The notes under the pieces were generated by a model. It saw nothing but the letters and a program-made list of their open reading frames with translations. It was not told where the DNA came from and ran no database searches. 64,000 bases of DNA from Chitinilyticum aquatile DSM 21506 (GTDB lineage Bacteria; Pseudomonadota; Gammaproteobacteria; Burkholderiales; Chitinibacteraceae), in NCBI RefSeq assembly GCF_000430805.1, contig NZ_AUMS01000004.1:1-64000 (forward strand), in the 5' to 3' direction. Each line of letters opens with the position of its first letter. Within the stretch, counting starts at the first letter, position 1. A program made the position numbers and the translations under genes. This document shows positions 3,731 to 47,418 of this stretch, piece by piece.

Positions 3731-6700
3731 TTGACTCCCACCTTTCCTGCCGAACCGGCTCCGAACCTGACCATGCCGGGGGCATGGCAATTCATCGAGC
3801 AAAGCCGGTTAGCGGTACTGGTCTGGGACAGGCAGCTGAGCCTGCTGCAGGCCTCGCCTGCGGCGACCGAGTTGCTGGGACGCGATGAGGAACTCCTGCA
3901 GGGGCACTTCCTGAATGAATTGCTGCCAGTCAGCGAACACTTCCGCCTGAGCAGCCGCCTGCAGCAATTGCAACCGGAGCAGCCTCCGCTGATGCTGGAA
4001 GGCTGGGTACTCGACCGCTCACTCGACGAAATGCGCGTGCAGTGGGTGATCTGGTCATTGGATGAGCTGCACCAGATCGGCCTGCTCTTCGATCAGCGCG
4101 AATTGTCGGCGCTGCGCGATGAGGTACAGATGCGCCGCGAGCTGTATACCGCGCTCGTCACCCAGGCACGCGACGCCATCGTGCTGATCAATCCGAACGA
4201 AGCCAGCATCATCGAATTCAACCCGGCGGCAGCCGACATGCTCGGTTATACGCCGGCCGAGTTCGGCAGGCTGTCCCTGAGCCAGCTCGGCAGCGGCGAT
4301 GAAATCAATACATGGCTAGGGTATACGCGTAAAGCCAAGGACGGACAATGCACCATCCACGATACACTGCTTAATTCCAAGGGCGGCTCGCGCATCAACG
4401 TCCGCATCAGCAGCCGGCCGGTACTGGTGCAGGGCGAGGCAATGCTGGCAACGCTCTGGACCGACATCACGCCCTCCCACCACGCGCGCCAGGAAATCGC
4501 CGCCCTCACCCAGCACATGAACATGGTACTGCGCGACGCGCAGATCGGCGCCTGGGATTACGACATCGTCAGCGGCATCATCCATGTCAACGAGCAGTTC
4601 CACCGCAATTACGGCCATGTATTTGCGACGCTGGATACGCACATCGACGACTGGCGCAAGATCCGTCATCCGCTCGACGAAGCCAATGCCGACGCGGCAC
4701 TGCTCGCGCACCTGGAAGGCAAAACGCCGGAATTCGAAGGCAAGTGGCGCCTGCAGCAGGCCGACGGCAGCTGGCACTGGTGCGTGTCGCGCGGCAAGGT
4801 GATTGAGTGGGCGGAGGATGGCAGCCCGATCCGGATGACGGGCACCATCATCGACCTCAGCGCCCAGCAGGAATCGCTGGGTGAGCTGATCCGCTCGGAA
4901 ACCAAGGCCCGTGCGATGCTTGATGCGCTGTCGGCCTGCATCGCCATCCTGGACGAGCGCGGCAATGTCGTTACCGCCAACGAATCATGGCAGCGTTTCG
5001 AAAACCGCTATGGCATCGCCCCCAATGAATGCCTGCGTATCGGCCAGCGCCATGACAGCGCCGCACGCTACCAGTATGCCGAGCTGCACGATGCCTACCA
5101 GGCAGGCCTGAATACTGTCCTGCGCGGCGAACTCGACTATTTCGAAATGGAAATTCCCGCGCCCTGCGAGCAGGAAATCCAGTGGTTCCTGTGTCGCATG
5201 CAGCGCGTGCACCAGCTCGGCGGGCAGATTCTGCTGGCGCATGAGGACATCACGCAGCAGAAACTCATCAGCCAGGCCATCAACGACACCAAAAGCCGCT
5301 ACGAAGAGCTGCTGCACAATGTGGACGGCATCGTCTGGGAGGCCGACCCGAAAACGCACAATACGACGTTTGTCAGCGGCCAATGCGAGCGCCTGCTGGG
5401 CTATTCACTGCACAACTGGATGCAGGAGGGATTCTGGCTGTCCCGCATCCACCCCGATGACCGTACGAATGTGCTGCGCATAGCCCAGGAAAATGTCGCC
5501 GCTGGCAAGGATTATGAACTCGAATACCGCCTGCAGACTGCAGATGGTCGCTGGTTGTGGCTACATGACCGGGCATCCTTGCAGCGCAATGAAGCTGGCG
5601 TACTGCAACTGCGCGGGCTGATTATCGACATCACTGCCCGCAGGCAAACTGAGGAACAGCTGCGGCTGGCTGCCAGTGTTTTTCAATATGCGCACGAGGG
5701 CATTCTGATCACCGATGCAAGCAACCGCATCATCGACATGAATCAGACCTTCAACGAGCTGACCGGCTTCAGCCGCGACGACCTGATCGGCCAAAAACCG
5801 ACCATGCTGCGCTCCGGGCGCCACAACCGCGACTACTTCAACGCGATGTGGGAGCAGATCACCCGCAACGGCTTCTGGCGGGGTGAAATCTGGAACCGCC
5901 GCAAGAGTGGTGAGCTGTGCGTCGACCTGCTGACCATCTCCGCCGTACGCAATGCCGACCAGGCCATCAGCCACTATGTCGGCGTCTACGCCGACATCAC
6001 GCAGCTCAAGCAGCAGGAACAGAAGCTCGAATTGCTGGCTCACTACGACGCGCTGACCGGCCTGCCCAACCGCGTGCTGCTCGCCGACCGGCTCGAGCAG
6101 GCGCTGGCACTGGCGCGGCGCAGCGGCCTCCTCCTGGCGGTGTGCTATCTGGATCTGGACGATTTCAAGCCGATCAATGACCGTTACGGCCATGAAGTCG
6201 GCGACGACCTGCTGGTCGAAATCAGCCGGCGGCTCATCGACAATGTGCGCGGTGGCGATACCGTCGCGCGGCTGGGTGGCGACGAATTCGTGCTGCTGCT
6301 GGGCAACCACACTTCCACCGAGGAATGCGAGCAGGCGCTGCAGCGCATCCTGCATGTCATCGCCGTACCCTATCTGCACGAGGGCGATGTGCTGAACGTG
6401 TCGGCCAGCCTCGGCGTGACGCTCTATCCGCAGGACGGTGCCGACGCCGAAGGGCTGATGCGCCACGCCGACCAGGCGATGTATACCGCCAAGCAATCGG
6501 GCGCCAACCGCTTCCATTTCTTCGACGCGGCCCAGGATCTGCAGGTGCGCAGCCAGCGCCAGCTGCTCGACCGCATCGCGCGCGCACAGGCCGACAACGA
6601 GCTGCGGCTGTATTACCAACCCAAGATCGACATGCTTACCGGTCGCGTGATCGGCGCCGAAGCCCTGCTGCGCTGGGAGCACCCCGAGCGCGGCATGGTG

Positions 6701-13957: not shown

Positions 13958-14909
13958 TTGCGATGGCGGCCATCACGCCGCCCATGACCACGAATTCGAC
14001 CACAGTCACCACCACCATCATCACGCTGCGCCGGCGTCGCAGCGCCGGCTGGTCTTTGCGCTGCTGATCACCGGCGGTTTTGCCGTTATCGAACTGCTGG
14101 GCGGCTGGTGGACCGGCTCGCTGGCACTGATGTCGGATGCGGGCCACATGTTTACCGATTCGGCCTCGCTGCTGCTGGCGCTGATTGCCAACCTGATCGG
14201 ACAGCGTCCGGCCAATGACGATCACTCCTACGGTTTCGGCCGCGCCGAAGTCATCGGCGCGCTGATCAACAGCCTGGCGATGATCGCGCTGGTGGTGTGG
14301 ATCGGTGTCGAAGCAGTGCAGCGCCTCCTGCACCCGCAGGAAGTGAACGGCGGCGGCGTGATGATCATCGCCATCATCGGCCTGATCGTGAACGTACTCT
14401 CCGCGTGGCAGCTCTCGCACGACCACGACAACATGAACAGCCGCGCCGCGCTCATCCATGTGCTGGGCGATCTGCTGGGCTCGGTGGCGGCGATTGCCGC
14501 TGGCGCCATCATCTATTTCACCGGCTGGAAACCGATCGACCCCATCCTGTCGGTGCTGGTGCTCGCGCTCATCATGCGCTCGACCTGGCAACTGCTGAAG
14601 CAGGCCACGCACGACCTGATGGAAGGTGTGCCCTCACACCTCAAGCTGCACGAAATCGGCATGGCGCTGGCAGCCGAACCGGGCGTGCGCGAGGTGCACG
14701 ATCTGCATGTCTGGCGCATCGGCGGCAAACGCGTGGCTCTGTCGGCACATCTGCAGATTGCGGATGGCCAGCAGTGGCCCGCCCTGATGGCACGACTCAA
14801 CAAACTGTTGCTGGAGCGCTACCGCATCGACCATGTTACCCTGCAGCCAAGCTGGCACAGCCCGCCGCCCAACGGCCGGGTAATCCCGATCCAGCCACGG
14901 CACAATTGA
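13932..14909 (+). CDS. Cation diffusion facilitator (CzcD/ZitB-type metal exporter)
   Basis: 325 residues from the ATG at 13932. The N-terminal 35 residues are extremely His-rich (MHHHDHPHDC, then GGHHAAHDHEFDHSHHHH), a cytoplasmic metal-binding tail. Six membrane helices follow. The transport site residues appear as SDAGHMFTDSASL in helix 2 and ALIHVLGDLLGS in helix 5. The C-terminal cytoplasmic domain shows EVHDLHVWRIGG. These features fit proton-driven export of Zn, Co or Cd; the metal cannot be fixed from sequence. The first 26 nt overlap the kinase, so it probably belongs to the same operon. Confidence 0.94.
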   Translation: MHHHDHPHDCDGGHHAAHDHEFDHSHHHHHHAAPASQRRLVFALLITGGFAVIELLGGWWTGSLALMSDAGHMFTDSASLLLALIANLIGQRPANDDHSYGFGRAEVIGALINSLAMIALVVWIGVEAVQRLLHPQEVNGGGVMIIAIIGLIVNVLSAWQLSHDHDNMNSRAALIHVLGDLLGSVAAIAAGAIIYFTGWKPIDPILSVLVLALIMRSTWQLLKQATHDLMEGVPSHLKLHEIGMALAAEPGVREVHDLHVWRIGGKRVALSAHLQIADGQQWPALMARLNKLLLERYRIDHVTLQPSWHSPPPNGRVIPIQPRHN

Positions 14910-15007
14910 TGCTGGGTGGATTGATACGGGGCTGATTGCTGCAAAGCCGATTGAGCCCCACCCCGTCCTTTGTTAGCATCGCAGACCATTGCTTTCTGGA
15001 AAACACC

Positions 15008-15595
15008 ATGCGCGCGTCCCTCCTTATCGGCCTGCTCCTGGCCGGCGTTACCACCAGCGCCCTGGCTGACGAGTTCGGCAATCATGCGCCGGATGGCACC
15101 ATGCCCGGCGAAGACGGCCTGATCCGTGGCTGGATCAACAGCAAGAAAGCCCCGCCCAAGGAAGGTGAATTCACCCTGCCCGAACTGGCAAAGCTGCAAG
15201 ACTGGGCGACGGTTACCGTGCTGCAGCCGGTGAAGAACAACAATTTCGGCATTGCGCTCGATAGCGTCAGCATCGGTCCGGACGATGAAATCGTCCGCTA
15301 TGTGTTTGTCGTGGAATCCAAGCGCAGCAAGGTGCGCAACTACATCTATGAAGGCATTGACTGCTTCAGCAGCCAGTACCGCACCTATGGCTGGGGCAAG
15401 GCCGATGGCAGCTGGCTGAAAAACGAAAATACCGAGTGGAAGGACATCGTCCGCAATACGCACAACGCCTGGCAGGCCGACCTGATGGACGAGATGTGCC
15501 GGGCCGCCGGCCCCTACAAGCTGCCGGACATCGTCAGCAACCTGCGCACCAAGCGCATGCCTGGCGAGTGCACCGGCTGCTCGCTCAGCCAGTAA
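15008..15595 (+). CDS. CNP1-like family periplasmic protein
   Basis: 195 residues with an 19-20-residue signal peptide (MRASLLIGLLLAGVTTSALA). The mature protein has the CNP1 family pattern: FTLPELAKLQD, a core with DSVSIGPDDEIVRYVFVVES, then NYIYEGIDCFSSQYRTYGWG and a final CTGC pair. The family is mostly found in betaproteobacteria and has no known function. Cys residues in the core and C-terminus could form disulfides. The gene converges on rsuA, with a perfect palindromic repeat between them. Confidence 0.85.
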   Translation: MRASLLIGLLLAGVTTSALADEFGNHAPDGTMPGEDGLIRGWINSKKAPPKEGEFTLPELAKLQDWATVTVLQPVKNNNFGIALDSVSIGPDDEIVRYVFVVESKRSKVRNYIYEGIDCFSSQYRTYGWGKADGSWLKNENTEWKDIVRNTHNAWQADLMDEMCRAAGPYKLPDIVSNLRTKRMPGECTGCSLSQ

Positions 15596-44636: not shown

Positions 44637-45691
44637 TGGCGGCAGTCAACTCAGTGCAGCCGCTGGCCGTGCAGTACCGGCGGCAGAACCGCTGGCGACT
44701 CGTGCTGCTGGTGCTGCTGGTGCTGGCGCTCGGCATGAGTCTGGCCACCGATCTGGCGACCGGCAGCGCCAGCTACCCGCTGAGTGAAGTACTCGCGGGC
44801 TTTGCTGATCCGGCCAGCCTCGATGCCGGCATGCGCGTGATCCTGTTCGACGTGCGCCTGCCCTACGCGCTGATGGCGCTGGCTGTCGGCGGTGCGCTCG
44901 GGTTGGGCGGCGCACAGCTGCAGACGGTGCTGAACAACCCGCTCGCCAGCCCCTTCACGCTGGGCGTAGCCGCCGCAGCGACACTGGGCGCGTCGCTCAC
45001 CATCGTGTTCGAACACCACTTGCCGGCACTGCCGCACAACGCGCTGGTACCCGCCGGGGCATTCCTCTGTGCGCTGGGCGTCACCGGGCTGATTTTGCTG
45101 CTCAGCCGCTGGCACGGCGGCGGCAGCGACACACTGGTGCTGTTCGGCATTGCGCTCTTGTTCGCGCTGGAAGCGCTGGTGTGGCTGCTGCAATTTCTGG
45201 CCGACGCCAACGCGCTGGAGCAGATTGTGTTCTGGTCAATGGGCAATCTGGGGCGCGCGACGCTGACACACGTCGCGCTCGTCGCCACCGTGCTGGCTGT
45301 CTGTTTCGTACTGGCGATGCGCCGTGCCTGGGCGCTGACACTGCTGCGCGGCGGTGCGGCACACGCGGCCAGCCTCGGCATCCGCGTCGAGCGCCTGAGC
45401 TGGCAGGTGCTGGTGGAAGTCAGCCTGCTGACTGCCGTTGCGCTGGCCTTTGTCGGCACCATCGGCTTTGTCGGCCTGGTCGGCCCGCATATCGCGCGCC
45501 TGCTGGTGGGCGAGCAGCACCGCTATTTCCTGCCCGCCAGCGTGCTGTGCGGCGCACTGATGCTGTCGCTGGCGTCGATTGCCAGCAAGAGCATCATCCC
45601 GGGCCTCTTGATTCCCATCGGCATCGTCACCGCACTTGTCGGCGTGCCGGTGCTGATCACGCTGATCCTCACCCGCAGGAGCGCGTCATGA
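44636..45691 (+). CDS. FecCD-family iron-complex permease
   Basis: 351 residues with about ten membrane helices. FecCD hallmarks: LPYALMALAVGGALGLGGAQLQTVLNNPLASP split over the first helices, and AFVGTIGFVGLVGPHIARL near 270-290. It is the single permease of the system and probably forms a homodimer. Start overlaps the binding-protein stop; end overlaps the ATPase by 4 nt (ATGA). Confidence 0.96.
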   Translation: MAAVNSVQPLAVQYRRQNRWRLVLLVLLVLALGMSLATDLATGSASYPLSEVLAGFADPASLDAGMRVILFDVRLPYALMALAVGGALGLGGAQLQTVLNNPLASPFTLGVAAAATLGASLTIVFEHHLPALPHNALVPAGAFLCALGVTGLILLLSRWHGGGSDTLVLFGIALLFALEALVWLLQFLADANALEQIVFWSMGNLGRATLTHVALVATVLAVCFVLAMRRAWALTLLRGGAAHAASLGIRVERLSWQVLVEVSLLTAVALAFVGTIGFVGLVGPHIARLLVGEQHRYFLPASVLCGALMLSLASIASKSIIPGLLIPIGIVTALVGVPVLITLILTRRSAS

Positions 45692-46452
45692 GCCTGCAGC
45701 TTTCCGACGTTTCCGTCACGCGCGGCAAGGCGCGCATCATCGACGCGCTGAGCCTGCCACCGCTGCCGCCGGGCAGCATGACCGCGCTGATCGGCCCGAA
45801 TGGTGCCGGCAAATCAACGCTGATCCACGCCATCGCCGGGCTGCTCCCCGCCAGCGGCGAACTGCTGCTCGACGGTCAGCCGCTGCCAGCACTGCCGCGC
45901 GACGAGCGCTGTCGCCGCGTCGGCCTGCTGCCGCAAACACTGCCGCAAGCGGCGGGGCTCACCGTTTACGAGCTGCTGCTGGGCGGCCTGCGCACGCTGG
46001 GCATCGCGCACGGCGAAGCCGAAACCCGCATCGAGGATGTGCTGCAGCGGCTGCGCCTGACCCCGCTGGCACTACGGCCGCTGGCCACGCTGTCGGGCGG
46101 GCAGCGCCAGATGATCGCACTGGCCCAGCTGCTGGCACGCCAGCCCCGCCTGCTGTTGCTGGACGAACCCAGCAGTGCGCTCGACCTGCACTGGCAGCTG
46201 GCGATGGTCGAGGCCATCCGCAGCGAGGTGCAGCAACGCCAGAGCATCGCGCTGCTTGCGCTGCACGACATCAATCTGGCACTGCGCAGCTGCGAGCGAG
46301 TGATCGTGCTGGCAAACGGCCGCTGCGCCGCCGACGGCGAGCCGCTGACGGTGCTGAGCCCCGACCTGCTGGCCGGCGTCTACGGCATCCGTGGCCAGAT
46401 CGAGCAGTGCTCGCTGGGGCGACCGGTGTTTGTGCTGGACAAACTGATTTGA
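45688..46452 (+). CDS. ABC transporter ATP-binding protein (FecE type)
   Basis: 254 residues from the ATG at 45688. Walker A IGPNGAGKST at about 34-43, Q-loop in VGLLPQTLPQ, signature LSGGQRQMIALAQ, Walker B LLLLDEPSSALD and the switch His in LLALHDINLAL are all present. It energises the iron-complex importer. No gene follows in the next 640 nt. Confidence 0.97.
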   Translation: MSLQLSDVSVTRGKARIIDALSLPPLPPGSMTALIGPNGAGKSTLIHAIAGLLPASGELLLDGQPLPALPRDERCRRVGLLPQTLPQAAGLTVYELLLGGLRTLGIAHGEAETRIEDVLQRLRLTPLALRPLATLSGGQRQMIALAQLLARQPRLLLLDEPSSALDLHWQLAMVEAIRSEVQQRQSIALLALHDINLALRSCERVIVLANGRCAADGEPLTVLSPDLLAGVYGIRGQIEQCSLGRPVFVLDKLI

Positions 46453-46483: not shown

Positions 46484-47048
46484 TTTTAGCGCCTGCGGCG
46501 CGGTGTTTGCATGCCGGGGGTGCCCGGCTGCACGTCAGGGGGCTCTACTGCACCCCACAAAGTCTGCGACTTTGCGGGGGCCCCGCGCTTGCCAAGCCCC
46601 CCGACACCCCCAAGGCGCGCCCGCTCCGCAACCCCTTCGGGGTTCCCTGCGATGGCATCGCGTCCTAACTAGCTTGCCATATACCCATGCACAGATAAGA
46701 CCAAAGTCTAATCAGATAAATGGCTATGGCCATATACCCACTACAAAATCGTCGGAAGACGCTTTGCTTTGTCGACCAACAAGTAACCAACGCTGCTGCT
46801 TAGCACGCCCCGCCCTGAAGCTGCCGAGAAGCACAGCAGGCCACAGGGTTTCGCGGGTGAGATGTTTGAGGGCGCAGCCCGAGTTTCGAACCCGCGCTGT
46901 GGCCTGCGAGCATCGCAGGGAAGCCGCCGCAGGCGGCCGGCGGACCGGGCTCGGCTTTGGGGTGAAGGGGGATTTGCCGAGACAAATCCCCCTTCCCGTC
47001 CGCCGGGCGGAACCGGCATGCAAAACACCGCGCCGCAGGCGCTAAAAA
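46484..47048. repeat. Gene-free block of nested hairpins bounded by a 34-bp inverted repeat
   Basis: TTTTAGCGCCTGCGGCGCGG at 46484 and onward to 46516 is repeated inverted at 47013-47048 (one extra A). Inside are perfect stems: 46558-46575 (CAAAGT/ACTTTG), 46630-46644 (AACCCC/GGGGTT), 46836-46846 with 46897-46907 (11 bp), 46923-46937 (GCCGCC/GGCGGC), 46939-46945 with 46998-47004, and 46965-46975 with 46984-46994 (11 bp). Open frames here are short and shift with the hairpins, so I do not call a gene. It looks like a mobile or multi-copy structured repeat, and may be transcribed. Confidence 0.75.
46691..46739. repeat. 49-nt palindromic element with decayed left half
   Basis: Right half AAATGGCTATGGCCATATAC ending in CCC is intact; the left end is ACAGAT. 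An unpaired half-site ending GCCATATACCC lies just before it at 46676-46686. Both are inside the hairpin block. Confidence 0.65.
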
Positions 47049-47094: not shown

Positions 47095-47418
47095 ATGGTA
47101 CAGAGCCAGACCCAAATAAATACCGAGCTTGCCAAGCAATACCTCTTCAAACTCTGCAAACACTTCGCCCGCAAGATCCCGGTCGACTTCGACGACAGCC
47201 AAGGCCTCGCGCGCTTTCCGATTGGCGAATGCCGTTTTTTGGCCGACAGCAGCACGCTGCAATTCCGGCTGAGCGCCCCCGATCCGGAGCAATTGCAACG
47301 CCTGCAGCGCGTGCTGGAAGAGCACCTGCAGCTGATGCGCCGCGCGCCCGATTCCGCGCTGGACTGGCTGCCTTCTGATCTCCCCTGTTCAGGCGACACG
47401 GCTGCCCCGTATAATTGA
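47095..47418 (+). CDS. DUF2218-family protein
   Basis: 107 residues. The DUF2218 pattern is [17 protein letters not shown], then [20 protein letters not shown] and [12 protein letters not shown]. Small acidic cytosolic proteins of this family have no known function; some lie near iron or siderophore genes, which fits the neighbourhood. A TATAAT for argH lies across the 3' end. Confidence 0.85.
47410..47415 (+). promoter_or_regulatory. Likely -10 element of the argH promoter
   Basis: TATAAT, 33 nt before the argH ATG, within the last codons of the DUF2218 gene. The -35 (TTCAGG at 47388) is weak. Confidence 0.55.

Follow-up and report, generated by a model that had tools for sequence, protein, structure and literature searches.

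We consider it fairly probable that the 565-nt block at positions 46484-47048 of the Chitinilyticum aquatile DSM 21506 DNA analysed here (the window, 64,000 nucleotides at full length) represents one member of a family of non-autonomous mobile DNA elements with folding ends, which would be moved in trans, probably via a single-stranded intermediate. The mobility of the element is well supported, and its route is one that we infer. An earlier, sequence-only reading had suggested a mobile element or a structured RNA, and both halves of this suggestion have found support: a dispersed unit, defined ends and empty sites in relatives on the one side, and a covarying fold on the other. The element probably represents a new family of gene-less mobile elements whose ends are structured and active as single strands.

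A gene-free composite of two divergent units

The block is a gene-free composite whose ends are perfect 25-bp inverted repeats and within which two divergent structured units can be distinguished, a complete one on the right (+) and a shortened one on the left (-). Both are matched by R1, a covariance model built from an alignment (A1) of 22 units of this genome. The features, in window coordinates, are the following:

45688-46452, + strand: left neighbour, ABC-transporter ATPase gene (Pfam ABC_tran)
46484-47048, no strand: whole composite element, end to end, delimited by its inverted ends, its repeat copies and a flanking gene pair that is adjacent without the element in relatives
46484-46508, + strand: left terminal arm of 25 bp, complementary to the right arm without mismatch, with the terminal hairpin GCGCC-TGC-GGCGC at 46489-46501
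46484-46660, - strand: short unit, reversed, with the outer hairpins, no core hairpin and an extra hairpin at 46553-46579 (R1 match at 46485-46776(-), 91.4 bits; inner limit 46660 placed by eye)
46661-46810, no strand: spacer separating the 5′ ends of the units
46681-46740, + strand: 60-nt ATACCCAT repeat, in the spacer (strict pattern search)
46811-47046, + strand: long structured unit, complete (alignment A1; R1 match of 259.8 bits, a score that is not independent, as the unit is in the training set)
46836-46907, + strand: core hairpin, with an 11-bp stem (46836-46846/46897-46907), internal loops and an apex
46863-46885, + strand: cross-phylum apex motif TGTTTGAG-GGC-GCA-GCC-CGAGTT
46964-46995, + strand: P4 hairpin, with a perfect 13-bp stem (46964-46976/46983-46995) whose sequence differs in other copies
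47023-47047, - strand: right terminal arm, with the terminal hairpin GCGCC-GCA-GGCGC at 47030-47042
47095-47418, + strand: right neighbour, DUF2218 gene (Pfam DUF2218)

The sequence-only reading had placed the block correctly and called it gene-free, and neither the four ORFs that overlap it nor a fifth that reaches outside gave a Pfam match at E <= 0.01, a search in which the flanking genes were matched. Next beyond the DUF2218 gene, Pfam identifies an argininosuccinate lyase gene. The 34-bp inverted ends reported earlier are a fair description of ends that are perfect over 25 bp and whose similarity extends to ~46 nt at 89%; together with the absence of genes, such terminal inverted repeats are features of the MITEs of DDE transposons. 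No sigma-70-like promoter was found in the block, and its two terminator-like sites are near the shuffled level (mean 1.3). The abundance of hairpins is likewise borne out: besides the perfect 11- and 13-bp internal stems, the block contains near-perfect internal stem pairs of 12 and 15 nt (92-93%), and its predicted RNA fold has z = -11.3 relative to dinucleotide-preserving shuffles, none of 100 being as stable. Folded as DNA, the right unit alone is stable on both strands (z = -3.8 and -4.3; 0/200 shuffles as good).

What had been described as one and a half copies of a 49-nt element corresponds to the 60-nt ATACCCAT repeat, in which two ATACCCA boxes were located, at 46681 and 46734. A strict pattern search yielded 16 matches in this genome, compared with one for a control pattern. 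The earlier proposal that the two families interact holds only in part: the repeat looks like a separate dispersed family, six of its 16 matches are situated next to units or between them, and any functional link would be hypothetical. The ten other matches lie away from units, and at least one or two of them may be due to chance.

The window element, in which a spacer carrying the ATACCCAT repeat separates the short unit from the long one, is built on the plan also seen in genome G003, where R1 gave 105 matches. In 40 regions chosen among the matches listed there are 61 long units, defined as exceeding 205 nt, and 28 short units; for 21 of the 61, a short unit in opposite orientation lies 88-1008 nt off on the 5′ side. 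Twenty G003 composites have sharp ends, GTTAGCGCC...GGCGCTAAC, with the GTTAGCGCC start exact in 15 and the GGCGCTAAC finish exact in 19, a T preceding in 17 and an A following in all 20. Terminal hairpins of the GCGCC-NNN-GGCGC type are present at both ends, in the window element and in the G003 composites. The spacers of seven G003 examples contain microsatellites and other repeats, or are short. At one G003 locus (L352), an array of GTTGCC hexamers (~14285-15050, ~760 nt) directly adjoins a long unit on its 5′ side.

Dispersal, conserved fold and empty sites

The search for further copies that the sequence-only reading had proposed was productive. When the block was compared with its own genome by blast, 60 matching pieces were obtained, which resolve into a unit of ~236 nt; pieces 1-61 and 105-171 of the block match units in reverse, which supports the short unit alongside its R1 match. 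At E <= 1, R1 detected 29 matches in the same genome, which include two weak ones and the 22 training units. Of 43 family genomes, 37 were searched with R1; all 37, representing 11 genera, gave matches, as did six of 24 genomes from other families of the order. A unit is also borne by contig L176 of Silvimonas amylolytica, its core being near-identical to that of a family genome (G013, locus L071).

Covariation among the copies, also proposed earlier as a check, is extensive. The A1 consensus structure comprises 63 pairs, 40 of which show two-sided compensatory changes, although the structure was derived from the same alignment on which it was tested. Paired cells amount to 94.7% in A1 and 78.3% in shuffles, none of 500 shuffles equals the alignment on any of five measures, and slid partners, used as a control, pair at just 36-46%. 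For a second genus, two-sided changes were observed at 42 of the 63 pairs, with 16 of 500 shuffles reaching the number of pair types. Alignment A4 was fitted to the covariance model, which limits the independence of its structure test. Helix 5 is the least paired helix in both alignment sets (85.9% and 70.8%). Thus the block is not a solitary copy without conserved structure in relatives, but one of many copies sharing a covarying fold.

Searches of reference collections gave no counterpart. The block has no match above a gathering threshold in Rfam 15, loose thresholds returned nothing for the element either, and blastn of the long unit against plasmid and phage collections, under settings for distant similarity, gave no match. 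We found no description of the repeat in open-licence papers. Elsewhere in the window, Rfam identifies a bacterial RNase P RNA (RF00010, 7411-7833(-), 256.5 bits).

Seven relatives of other genera were compared at this site: in six of them (G036, G006, G030, G015, G017 and G031) the genes that flank the block directly adjoin one another, without the element, and the seventh (G020) has no DUF2218 match. In G001, a congener of G000, the genome of the window, the region at argH matches neither the ABC-ATPase nor the DUF2218 gene. Of eight G000 copies queried in G001, three are absent at the matching place and the other five have no clear counterpart, and several unit regions line up, apparently common to both genomes, so movement appears to be slow or partly past. 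A similar picture emerges for G003, one composite of which is absent at the matching place in G013 (cleanly) and in G021 (where other sequence is present), this place being directly 3′ of an intrinsic terminator; three other G003 composites were judged, from spacing, to be present in one or both of these genomes. Target duplications were another check proposed earlier: in the 60-nt flanks of 20 G003 composites, direct repeats (p 0.62) and inverted duplications (p 0.40) were not above the level of permuted pairs, and the intergenic sequence at empty sites is too diverged for such duplications to be read there.

The orientation of units points to a coupling with the replication fork that is supported in one genus. 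In G003, 56 of 61 long units are oriented against the leading strand (p 6e-12), a figure for which the leading strand was inferred from the mean GC skew of fetched regions per contig segment, one contig (C4, nine units) having almost no net skew (0.0035), and for which the units are partly non-independent. Of 35 units flanked on both sides by genes of like direction, as called heuristically, 31 run against the leading strand, 17 of them next to leading-strand genes and 14 next to lagging-strand genes; because this holds for both kinds of neighbour alike, transcription does not explain the orientation. In G029, of the same genus, 32 of 43 units oppose the leading strand. The corresponding figure is 39 of 62 units (p 0.06) in G025, whereas in G026 only six of 14 units follow the rule, the majority being against it and one lying near a skew switch. 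A hand count for the genome of the window gives 16 of 23 long units opposed to the leading strand (p 0.09), and 11 of 12 long units without an opposed long partner, a subset chosen afterwards, follow the rule. Strong in one genus, the bias is thus no general feature: two other genera show it weakly or not at all. IS200/IS605 elements are reported to follow the direction of replication (PMC5371812).

A core apex in several phyla

The core hairpin carries an apex, TGTTTGAG-hairpin-CGAGTT on a stem, that is present in Proteobacteria, Nitrospirae, Firmicutes, Bacteroidetes and others. Its pattern, TGTTTGAGSSCGNAGSSCGAGTT, occurs in at least 119 stretches of bacterial genome contigs, compared with ~0.5 expected by chance at equal base frequencies. 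Bearers among the matches listed include Zoogloea, Denitromonas, Rhodoferax, Gallionella, Acidithiobacillus, Syntrophaceae and Desulfobacterales, as well as Nitrospirae, Lachnospiraceae, Oribacterium, Acidaminococcaceae, Parabacteroides, Paludibacter and many MAGs. For 124 motif matches, the flanking 25-28 nt pair better with their own partner (mean 9.7) than with the partners of other loci (5.7, sd 1.6), and 32 of the 124 reach the 99th percentile of the other-locus scores; the motif thus tends to cap a stem. The apex loop itself is presumably formed by tandem G.A pairs and a GNA triloop. Outside some families the distribution is patchy, as the strict form was found in four of 369 genomes evenly sampled from the class, that of the window included.

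Rfam gave no match at the motif in 20 loci of the cross-phylum set, and the exact motif is absent from IMG/VR. Around 119 loci, the 40 largest clusters of ORFs of at least 90 aa, inspected by eye through one example each for a conserved partner protein, contained element frames and ordinary genes. In a Zoogloea MAG contig (L188, ~4200-5740), the P4 hairpin of an element copy is cut short by unrelated sequence; within ~0.8 kb of the break lies an ORF that we take to be IS110-like, as though the copy had been the target of an insertion sequence. In Acidithiobacillus (L169 and L172) and another proteobacterium (L161), the motif resides in a long hairpin whose outermost arms vary yet appear by eye to be largely complementary.

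Mechanism, rival explanations and related systems

Extensive compensatory change, in the A1 alignment as in the second genus, and an internal loop conserved in several phyla might be expected if the transcript were the working molecule, that is, if the block encoded a structured RNA or a retro-copied, SINE-like RNA whose DNA copies spread by reverse transcription; both reverse-transcriptase genes of genome G012, moreover, lie beside or between units. We nevertheless regard this explanation as unlikely. Neither G000 nor G001 has a match to reverse transcriptase (RVT_1, PF00078, E <= 1e-5), and 22 of the 37 family genomes lack one, although all of these carry units. The two G012 proteins resemble Drt8 and type VI retron defence enzymes, and 16 of the 18 reverse-transcriptase loci fetched are without a unit, four of these having been classified as Drt2, Drt8, UG14 and AbiP2 types; reverse transcriptase was accordingly rejected as the partner. 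We interpret the G012 genes (L419:5317-6384 and L418:4584-6308) as defence genes that have settled close to or within the element, the type VI-retron-like gene being situated between two divergent units that are separated by 2.3 kb and the Drt8-like ORF beginning 157 nt from a short unit. The lack of a sigma-70-like promoter in the block also speaks against a working transcript. In addition, GT and AC stem mismatches are equally frequent (18 versus 16 among distinct hairpins, 36 versus 42 among all), so that the folding strand is not singled out, and several P4 pairs exchange both arms (U-A and C-G) while G-U intermediates are few or absent. Without being decisive, this balance and these arm swaps are explained by DNA-level exchange or by single-stranded DNA no less well than by selection on RNA.

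For IS200/IS605 or REP systems, publications (PMC5371812, PMC6006769 and PMC3733652) report an arrangement in inverted pairs, ends with hairpins, a location between genes and an orientation linked to the replication fork, features that would suit REPIN/BIME-like or TIRtron-like repeats served by a tyrosine (HUH, Y1) transposase. We give this explanation little credence, since a Y1 transposase (Y1_Tnp, PF01797, E <= 1e-5) has no match in the genome of the window or in 19 of the 37 family genomes, all bearing units, and the core motif is found at none of 30 Y1 loci of the family and order, taken with flanks of up to 1.5 kb; one of these loci gave a weak partial R1 match (17.1 bits). For the genome of the window such an enzyme was therefore rejected as the partner; the units, moreover, are ~236 nt long with several hairpins, as opposed to single short stems. 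It is still less probable that the copies are immobile palindromes, homogenised by template switching or gene conversion and acting as terminators or insulators at gene ends. Such palindromes could account for stem pairs whose arms change together without intermediates, for the predominance of G003 units between convergent (20) over divergent (6) genes and for the copy just 3′ of an intrinsic terminator, but not readily for empty sites and an interrupted gene pair, nor for an orientation that in G003 tracks replication and not transcription.

The mobile DNA element that we favour would have as its ends two structured units pointing apart, each finishing in a GCGCC-NNN-GGCGC hairpin, with a disposable spacer between them. 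Its folded ends may be the recognition sites of an enzyme that is provided in trans and works on single strands exposed at the replication fork, and copies would insert at intergenic sites, multiplying or being replaced within each lineage. More tentatively, and with greater doubt than belief, the units might be the ends of a cross-phylum class of mobile elements defined by nucleic acid, with the TGTTTGAG/hairpin/CGAGTT apex on a stem, use of the replication fork, stems that change arm with arm, and mobilisation by an enzyme that has so far escaped recognition as a transposase and might belong to host replication or repair. The repeat is present in every family genome searched, has a covariation-backed fold and shares an apex with several phyla, yet is without an Rfam match; it makes the spread of gene-less elements in the absence of a recognised transposase open to testing, and short hypothetical frames in genomes of this sort may in some cases be parts of the element.

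Several known systems resemble the element in part. As described in PMC3733652, the TIRs of TIRtrons are long, partly self-complementary terminal repeats that form their own families, whereas no TIRYT gene lies between the repeats of the element; this comparison is with that description, and the terms "beta", "Betaproteobacteria" and "Chromobacterium" are absent from the main text of that source. REP, REPIN and BIME sequences with RAYT (TnpA-REP) are likewise intergenic palindromic DNA, often in inverted pairs and many copies, and are thought to move as single strands. The units described here differ in their length of ~236 nt, their several hairpins and their conserved internal loops, and in that the genome of the window has no Y1 match and the fetched Y1 loci are not flanked by units. 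IS200/IS605 and its non-autonomous derivatives share hairpins near both ends and, in one genus, an orientation that follows replication; the element, in contrast, has no transposase gene, a far larger unit structure and a bias that is absent or weak in two other genera. Retrons and other mobile non-coding RNAs have compensatory structure, long stems and conserved loops, as does the element, but the genome of the window has no reverse-transcriptase match and Rfam gives none for the repeat. MITEs such as ERIC and Correia are small, gene-less and intergenic with inverted ends, all of which the element shares; no parent transposon was found for it, and it differs from them in possessing two distinct structured ends, a variable spacer and a core motif that extends across phyla.
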